In this document: one piece after another, positions 39,877-40,363 of the stretch
How the letters are laid out: every line of letters starts with the position of its first letter
Position numbering within the stretch: position 1 is the first letter of the stretch
Assembly (NCBI GenBank): GCA_017408685.1
Contig: JAFQUE010000089.1
Location: 1 to 40,363 of the forward strand
DNA length: 40,363 bases
From: Bacteroidaceae bacterium
GTDB taxonomy: Bacteria > Bacteroidota > Bacteroidia > Bacteroidales > Bacteroidaceae
Direction: 5' to 3'
Program-made: the position numbers and the translations under genes
The notes under the pieces: generated by a model
Seen by the model: only the letters and a program-made list of their open reading frames with translations
Database searches by the model: none
Told to the model about the DNA's origin: nothing

Positions 39877-39903
39877 GCGCCGCTCATGAGCGGCGCTTTT
39901 TTT
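39877..39903 (+). terminator. Intrinsic terminator of infC-rpmI-rplT
   Basis: Bases 39877-39896 are a perfect 20-bp palindrome (GCGCCGCTCA and its complement), followed by T7 at 39897-39903. It is a very strong terminator. Confidence 0.95.
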
Positions 39904-39984
39904 AGTAATTGACGTCTTTTTGTGTGAAAAACAGTTTATAATGGAATAAAAATCACAAAAAAGACGTTTTTGTGGCAGAAATGC

Positions 39985-40015
39985 TTGTTTCCGTGAAAAA
40001 AGGTTCTTATGTTTG
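39985..40015 (+). promoter_or_regulatory. Sigma-ABfr-type promoter for 6S-like RNA
   Basis: TTG (39985-39987) and TATGTTTG (40008-40015) are separated by exactly 20 nt. The predicted start at 40021-40022 coincides with the first base of the terminal helix of the RNA. Confidence 0.82.
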
Positions 40016-40021
40016 TATACG

Positions 40022-40210
40022 GTTTTGCTGTACCGATTGACTGGGAAACTCATCAATTATTATCGAAAACCGAGTCAGCTTCGTATTGTCCAATGGCGGG
40101 CCACGCCTTCGGGTAGCTTTAGAGAGCCGGTGGATTACAAAGGACAGGAGCCCTCAAATCTTGTATTCTCGGAGTTTCGTCGTTCTCTTCTGTGCAGCAA
40201 AACTTTTTTT
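40022..40210 (+). ncRNA. 6S-like RNA (probable Bacteroidales-1 RNA), about 189 nt
   Basis: No usable frame is present: the only longer one lacks any ATG. The RNA is bounded by a consensus promoter and a T7 tract (40204-40210). Its ends pair: 40022-40033 with 40192-40203, 12 bp including one U-G. Inside, GAAACT (40045-40050) pairs with AGTTTC (40173-40178), CCGAG (40070-40074) with CTCGG (40168-40172), and TGTCC (40087-40091) with GGACA (40142-40146). A large asymmetric internal bubble (40075-40086 and 40147-40167) lies between the last two. One long rod with a central bubble and about 190 nt is the form of 6S RNA, which binds RNA polymerase as a promoter mimic. From memory, the Bacteroidales-1 motif lies downstream of L20 genes in this order and has been suggested to be the 6S RNA. 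The pairing is seen; the identity is inferred. Confidence 0.8.
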
Positions 40211-40363
40211 ATTGTGTTGTATTTTGTATTCTTCAACACAACTTACGGCTCACTAGCAAAAATTGGGGGGATACTTCTTGAGATAGTATATGAACAGGAA
40301 TGAGAATTTTTGTATTCTTCAACAAACTTACCCTTAACCTGTTATCTTGTATTCTTTTTGTTG
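40211..40363. other. Non-coding tail with hairpin and repeated TTGTATTCT motif
   Basis: No gene is seen up to the window edge. TTGTGTTG (40212-40219) pairs with CAACACAA (40234-40241), which may be a second terminator. The motif TTGTATTCT occurs at 40161, 40224, 40310 and 40347; the two middle copies continue as TTCAACA and then (with a CA insertion in one) AACTTAC. Confidence 0.5.

Follow-up and report, generated by a model that had tools for sequence, protein, structure and literature searches.

A Bacteroidales-1 RNA behind rplT as a probable 6S RNA, and its relationship to the 6S-Flavo RNAs

The RNA locus and its family

The window (by which we mean the whole stretch of DNA analysed, 40,363 nucleotides from a Bacteroidaceae genome) ends in a run of four protein-coding genes and a small RNA gene that begins 184 nt behind the last of them, rplT. 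The features of this region are as follows.

Window end, upstream of infC: thrS, identified by inspection of its translation
Window end, after thrS: infC, rpmI and rplT (Pfam: IF-3, L35 and L20)
39877..39903, + strand: terminator-like hairpin with T7 tract behind rplT, located in the sequence
39984..39990, + strand: CTTGTTT, -33-zone element of a sigma-ABfr-type promoter, located in the sequence
40008..40015, + strand: -7 element TATGTTTG (TAnnTTTG), located in the sequence
40022..40203, + strand: 6S RNA (Bacteroidales-1); match of model R1 at 40022-40203, of RF01693 at 40026-40205
40022..40033, + strand: closing stem P1, 5' arm GTTTTGCTGTAC, pairs with 40192-40203
40045..40051, + strand: helix P2, 5' arm GAAACTC, pairs with 40172-40178
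40052..40071, + strand: central bubble, 5' strand, 20 nt; putative pRNA template
40072..40155, + strand: apical arm, with P3, P4, P5, conserved core and apical hairpins
40072-40074 with 40153-40155, + strand: P3, in the apical arm
40078-40082 with 40147-40151, + strand: P4, in the apical arm
40087-40091 with 40142-40146, + strand: P5, in the apical arm
40093-40104 and 40130-40142, + strand: conserved apical core ATGGCGGGCCAC / GTGGATTACAAAG
40156..40171, + strand: central bubble, 3' strand, 16 nt, with conserved AAAnCnTGT
40172..40178, + strand: helix P2, 3' arm GAGTTTC
40192..40203, + strand: closing stem P1, 3' arm GTGCAGCAAAAC, pairs with 40022-40033
40204..40210, + strand: T7 tract at the 3' end; putative terminator

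The RNA is a member of a family already described. The Rfam model RF01693 (Bacteroidales-1) matches it over the full length of the model (positions 1-179 of 179) with 121.6 bits (E = 7.2e-20), against a curated gathering cut-off of 60 bits. No other Rfam match in the window exceeds its cut-off, and the genome has one copy of RF01693. The original prediction, which had named Bacteroidales-1, was therefore correct about the family. It had also presented the 6S identity as an open matter, and in this respect it was overtaken by existing sources: the Rfam title of RF01693 already reads "6S-Bacteroidales RNA suggested", and the accessible part of Ryan 2020 (PMC7366714) reports a 6S RNA with two classes of pRNA in B. 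thetaiotaomicron. Judging by the Rfam title, the latter RNA would be Bacteroidales-1; RF01693 is not named in that part of the paper.

RF01693 matches 191 of the 201 genomes examined in the window's family, one of which (G260) has three matches, and scores there reach 202.9 bits, compared with 121.6 bits for the window's member. Of 13 genomes of the window's genus, 11 have the RNA. A pattern of 34 bases from its 5' part occurs in 17 public MAG contigs, 15 of which are labelled Bacteroidaceae and come from ruminant hindgut, the other two being labelled Bacteroidales. The ten genomes of the family that RF01693 does not match (G325, G395, G253, G336, G349, G261, G295, G348, G366 and G374) also gave no match with R1, a model that we built from 60 Bacteroidales sequences, none of them 6S-Flavo (0/10, in a run without a positive control). 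Assembly gaps are one possible cause of these absences; five of the ten genomes are at least 90 per cent complete.

The promoter, the 12-bp helix joining the two ends, the T7 tract and the bubble had all been predicted, and each was found in its proposed place. From the promoter spacing and the end of the closing stem, transcription would start at 40022. Across 97 loci brought in by RF01693, R1 or the 6S-Flavo model RF01685, an exact TAnnTTTG occurs near the RNA start in 60, as opposed to 3.2 per cent of shuffles, and 60 of the 63 Bacteroidales loci of the window's group carry it within 160 nt upstream of the RNA. TTG is present in the -33 zone at 50 of the 60 loci with an exact TAnnTTTG (a raw count, without control). 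In the genus, the closing stem is followed by at least six T at 8 of 10 loci. Because a terminator-like hairpin with its own T7 tract stands behind rplT, the RNA gene is probably a transcription unit separate from rplT. The predicted lack of coding potential also held: the open reading frames overlapping the RNA (96, 61 and 56 aa) have no Pfam match at E ≤ 1.

Just behind the T tract, a dispersed repeat begins (40222-40363) and runs to the end of the contig. A 126-base query from this repeat has 34 matches in the genome, including two in the window. Nineteen of the matches span 90 bases or more, and for at least 14 of these a contig end is no further away than about 700 nt. The repeat may explain the assembly break at the end of the window. 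Behind the RNA, similar GGYTCACYWGCAAA-like sequences are also present in four loci of the same genus (L071, L072, L076 and L069). Of 98 oriented loci, seven have available sequence that stops no more than about 200 nt past the RNA, and in one of these seven (L088) we recognised a tRNA-like gene there by eye.

Rod structure, covariation and the central bubble

RNAs of the 6S class are rods of about 180-200 nt with a closing stem, a large central bubble and an apical arm; the bubble corresponds to the melted promoter, the closing stem to the downstream DNA and the apical arm to the upstream DNA. In the window, the closing stem consists of 12 bp, one of which is a G-U pair, and the end-to-end inverted repeat was also returned by a repeat search (15-nt arms, 87 per cent). 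The bubble is bounded by helix P2 on one side and helix P3 on the other. The Rfam consensus for RF01693, as displayed, pairs the apical arm only, whereas our model adds P1 and P2.

Folded on its own, the RNA sequence does not stand out in energy (z = -1.58, with 17 of 200 shuffles as stable or more so), and we rejected folding energy as proof of structure. Covariation, however, settles that the structure is real. Alignment A1 comprises 60 relatives from the genus, family and order, taken from the 95 sequences that were left after removal of two incomplete sequences (L105 and L100) and one duplicate (L041). Double changes occur in 35 of its 42 pairs, and 88.3 per cent of its cells are paired, compared to 40-48 per cent in slid versions; on none of five measures did any of 500 shuffles reach the real value. 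All 14 model pairs of P1 show double changes, with the outer four pairs often unpaired outside the genus. P2 is paired in 96.2 per cent of cells, with double changes in three of its seven pairs. P3 hardly varies and has no double change, and A1 therefore says little about this helix. With P3 uninformative, the proposed helices thus covary as the predicted rod with closing stem and bubble.

Two further alignments agree with A1, both of them fitted to the model and hence leaning towards it. In A2, which holds the 97 loci, 39 of 42 pairs have double changes; these counts include two chance matches (L156 and L157), which were dropped from the promoter, bubble and neighbour counts. A4 also covaries, and its counts include one antisense match (L241) that was dropped from the neighbour counts. 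Without any alignment, the longest run of end-to-end pairing averages 11.5 in the 63 Bacteroidales loci and 12.2 in 29 6S-Flavo loci (window, 12), versus 5.3-5.4 when the 3' ends are shuffled. An ACAAG-CUUGU pairing across the bubble, which looks attractive in the Rfam consensus, was left out of the model because by inspection it is absent from the window and from several relatives. Both the covariation and the bubble strands of 20 and 16 nt agree with the rod form of the 6S class.

The apical core (40093-40104 and 40130-40142) shows almost no variation among the 60 aligned sequences. Such conservation exceeds the need of a duplex-like arm, and contact with a protein is possible.

Among the 63 Bacteroidales loci, the 5' strand of the bubble is 17-22 nt long (mode, 20). 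The 3' strand carries AAAnCnTGT, in which positions 2, 3, 5 and 7 are A, A, C and T in 95, 97, 94 and 94 of the 97 loci, respectively; position 8 is G in 77 and position 9 is T in 91. The suggestion that the bubble mimics TAnnTTTG in sequence was not borne out in this strand, since the 97 loci show no clear excess over shuffled letters: at least four of six positions match in 65 loci (shuffled letters, 53.0) and at least five of six in 6 (shuffled letters, 10.2). The small excess at four of six means little because the loci are related. For the 5' strand, we predict from the sequence that pRNA synthesis begins within the conserved A(U/A)CA next to P2, near CUCAUC, which would yield a GAUGAGUUUCCC-like pRNA. 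Wehner 2014, as cited by Ryan 2020, reportedly predicted pRNAs as well.

Relationship to 6S-Flavo RNAs and gene neighbourhoods

Although no 6S-Flavo sequence went into R1, a search of the phylum with this model gave matches in 26 of 247 genomes: three Bacteroidales, 19 at places of RF01685 matches, and four in the family f128. In the same draw, RF01685 itself matches 30 of the 247 genomes, of which R1 thus recovers 19. When given the 97 loci, R1 matches all of them (63 Bacteroidales, 29 6S-Flavo, four f128 and L190). A second model (R2), built from 71 of the 97 loci with some 6S-Flavo sequences included, matches 39 of 247 genomes across the phylum, including 29 of the 30 RF01685 loci. It misses one R1 match (G091) as well as L190, a weak RF01685 match of 38 bits that we consider doubtful.

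Within the order Bacteroidales, R2 finds the RNA in 148 of 196 genomes, with one match per genome, 85 of them genomes that R1 had not matched (R1, 64/196). The RNA is therefore more widespread in the order than the Rfam model shows, which matches 48 of 198 genomes (36 above cut-off). One RF01693 match (G197) is absent among the R2 matches; this genome may lie outside the 196-genome draw. That one full-length model unites Bacteroidales-1 with 6S-Flavo shows that the two are homologous RNAs, and it links the window RNA to another family that is filed under 6S. Like the window RNA, 6S-Flavo RNA (RF01685) has the rod, the bubble, an AAACTC / GAGTTT helix and a conserved 3' bubble strand.

The two groups differ in their surroundings. 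Every one of the 29 6S-Flavo loci is flanked by zapA and rny (Pfam supports the identity of two ZapA and one RNase Y), and only one of them has TAnnTTTG within 160 nt upstream, whereas the window RNA lies behind rplT with TAnnTTTG directly upstream. The same neighbours appear at the new R2 matches. We examined 40 loci, from 37 of the 85 order genomes and from three genomes outside the order (G444, G581 and G397); none of these loci was used in building R2, and gene neighbours give evidence that does not depend on the RNA model. Downstream of the RNA, rny is found in 38 of the 40, and 34 lie between zapA and rny; the two loci without rny are those of f128. TAnnTTTG occurs within 160 nt upstream in three of the 40. 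Another motif, GTTC[TA]TT, lies no more than 70 nt ahead of the RNA at 24 of the 29 6S-Flavo loci and at 29 of the 40 R2 loci, but at only 2 of 63 loci of the window's group. We take this motif to resemble the boxA antitermination signal of rRNA leaders, and its position between zapA and 6S suggests that a longer transcript may be antiterminated there.

At none of the 63 Bacteroidales loci of the window's group was zapA or rny found beside the RNA, counting some loci whose flanks are short because of contig ends. The window RNA is likewise not between zapA and rny, as it lies behind rplT and is cut off on its downstream side by the contig end. The original prediction had placed the RNA downstream of rplT and expected it there in close relatives. 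The RNA was indeed found in the genus, but its position is less constant: rplT lies directly upstream in 6 of 10 genus loci, and within 400 nt upstream in 21 of the 63 Bacteroidales loci. Position behind rplT is therefore not a property of the RNA. The six f128 loci adjoin neither zapA nor rny, and TAnnTTTG is present in three of them (3/4 in the first set, 0/2 among the further loci).

Recognition of classical 6S RNA fails in both directions. RF00013 has no match in the window's genome, and none at E ≤ 10 when run on seven loci; conversely, E. coli ssrS goes unrecognised by R1 (the best score, 8.3 bits, falls elsewhere in the stretch searched). The two RNAs are nevertheless alike in size (the annotated ssrS is 183 nt long) and in rod architecture. 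Moreover, ssrS lies directly behind zapA, as do the RNAs of most of the Bacteroidia relatives that we examined outside the window's group, and the accessible part of one survey (PMC7641849) reports that zapA-ssrS forms a conserved array in beta- and gamma-proteobacteria. Because RF00013 and R1 do not cross-recognise the two RNAs, we regard the shared zapA neighbour as the best evidence here for kinship with classical 6S RNA. Among the matches listed in our literature search, which covered few subscription papers, no paper dealt with a Bacteroidetes 6S RNA located between zapA and rny. In the literature searched, the union with 6S-Flavo, the wider distribution, and the contrast between zapA-rny and free-standing genes appear to be new; Wehner 2014 may cover parts of this.

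Interpretation and alternatives

6S RNA restrains RNA polymerase globally. Bacteroidales, which are dominant in the gut, use a primary sigma factor of an unusual kind. The account that we favour, and to which we assign a probability of roughly 0.9 as a whole, is that of a 6S gene with its own promoter that has moved out of a zapA-6S-rny arrangement. From the sigma-ABfr-type promoter, a rod of about 182-189 nt with closing stem, central bubble and apical arm would be transcribed. By analogy with 6S RNA, it would imitate an open promoter and occupy the RNAP-sigma-ABfr holoenzyme, and the polymerase would then use the 5' bubble strand as template for a short pRNA, upon which the 6S RNA would be released. 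Polymerase binding, the start of the pRNA and regulation in the window's organism would all follow this analogy. The 6S RNA and pRNAs that the accessible part of Ryan 2020 reports for B. thetaiotaomicron make sequestration and pRNA-driven release likely here as well; the same part states that the primary sigma factor of Bacteroidetes differs.

A structured small RNA could instead pair with mRNAs or bind another protein and have no role as a polymerase regulator. The lack of an RF00013 match would fit this explanation, as would the strong sequence conservation of the apical core (GGCGGGCC / GGATTACAAAG), for which a mere duplex-like arm has no need. We nonetheless consider it unlikely, given the rod with closing stem and central bubble, the homology with 6S-Flavo, the zapA neighbourhood that relatives have in common with E. 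coli ssrS, and the pRNAs reported in B. thetaiotaomicron in the accessible part of PMC7366714. Still less probable is that the RNA acts in cis as a 3' element or attenuator of the rplT operon. Its distance of 184 nt from rplT and the 21 of 63 loci with rplT within 400 nt upstream are what one would expect of such an element, but the terminator-like hairpin behind rplT, the promoter motif in 60 of 63 loci, and the four of 10 genus loci in which no rplT was found directly upstream all argue against it. Finally, a chance fold in non-coding DNA would agree with a z of only -1.58; it is refuted by the Rfam match (E = 7.2e-20) and the covariation, and its probability is negligible.

Synteny also leads us to infer an ancestral zapA-6S-rny cluster from which the gene moved out with gain of a promoter. 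In the simplest reading of the sequences, the gene left the zapA-rny unit in the window's lineage, where it acquired a sigma-ABfr promoter, and a further move took place in f128. Promoter gain is less clear for f128 because TAnnTTTG is present in only half of its loci. We lean, with distinctly less confidence than in the account above, towards a wider history in which a single Bacteroidia-wide 6S family descends from an antiterminated zapA-boxA-6S-rny unit. In this ancestral unit, 6S RNA would be released by cleavage of a longer antiterminated transcript, in the manner of rRNA, and RNase Y, encoded by the adjoining rny, may process or degrade it. In the window's lineage, the escaped gene with its sigma-ABfr promoter would have 6S RNA made by the very polymerase that it is thought to inhibit, which would amount to direct feedback. 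f128 would represent a second family that lost the zapA-rny neighbours, with the promoter motif in some loci. If this history is true, the Bacteroidia 6S family, in which a full-length model links the Bacteroidales and flavobacterial RNAs, includes many Bacteroidales genomes where Rfam sees nothing. Since nature offers two arrangements of the gene, embedded between zapA and rny or behind a promoter of its own, the link between 6S level and growth can be tested in culturable species.

Three of the 40 further R2 loci (L242, L225 and L259) have TAnnTTTG within 160 nt upstream even though rny lies downstream, and are possible intermediates between the two arrangements.
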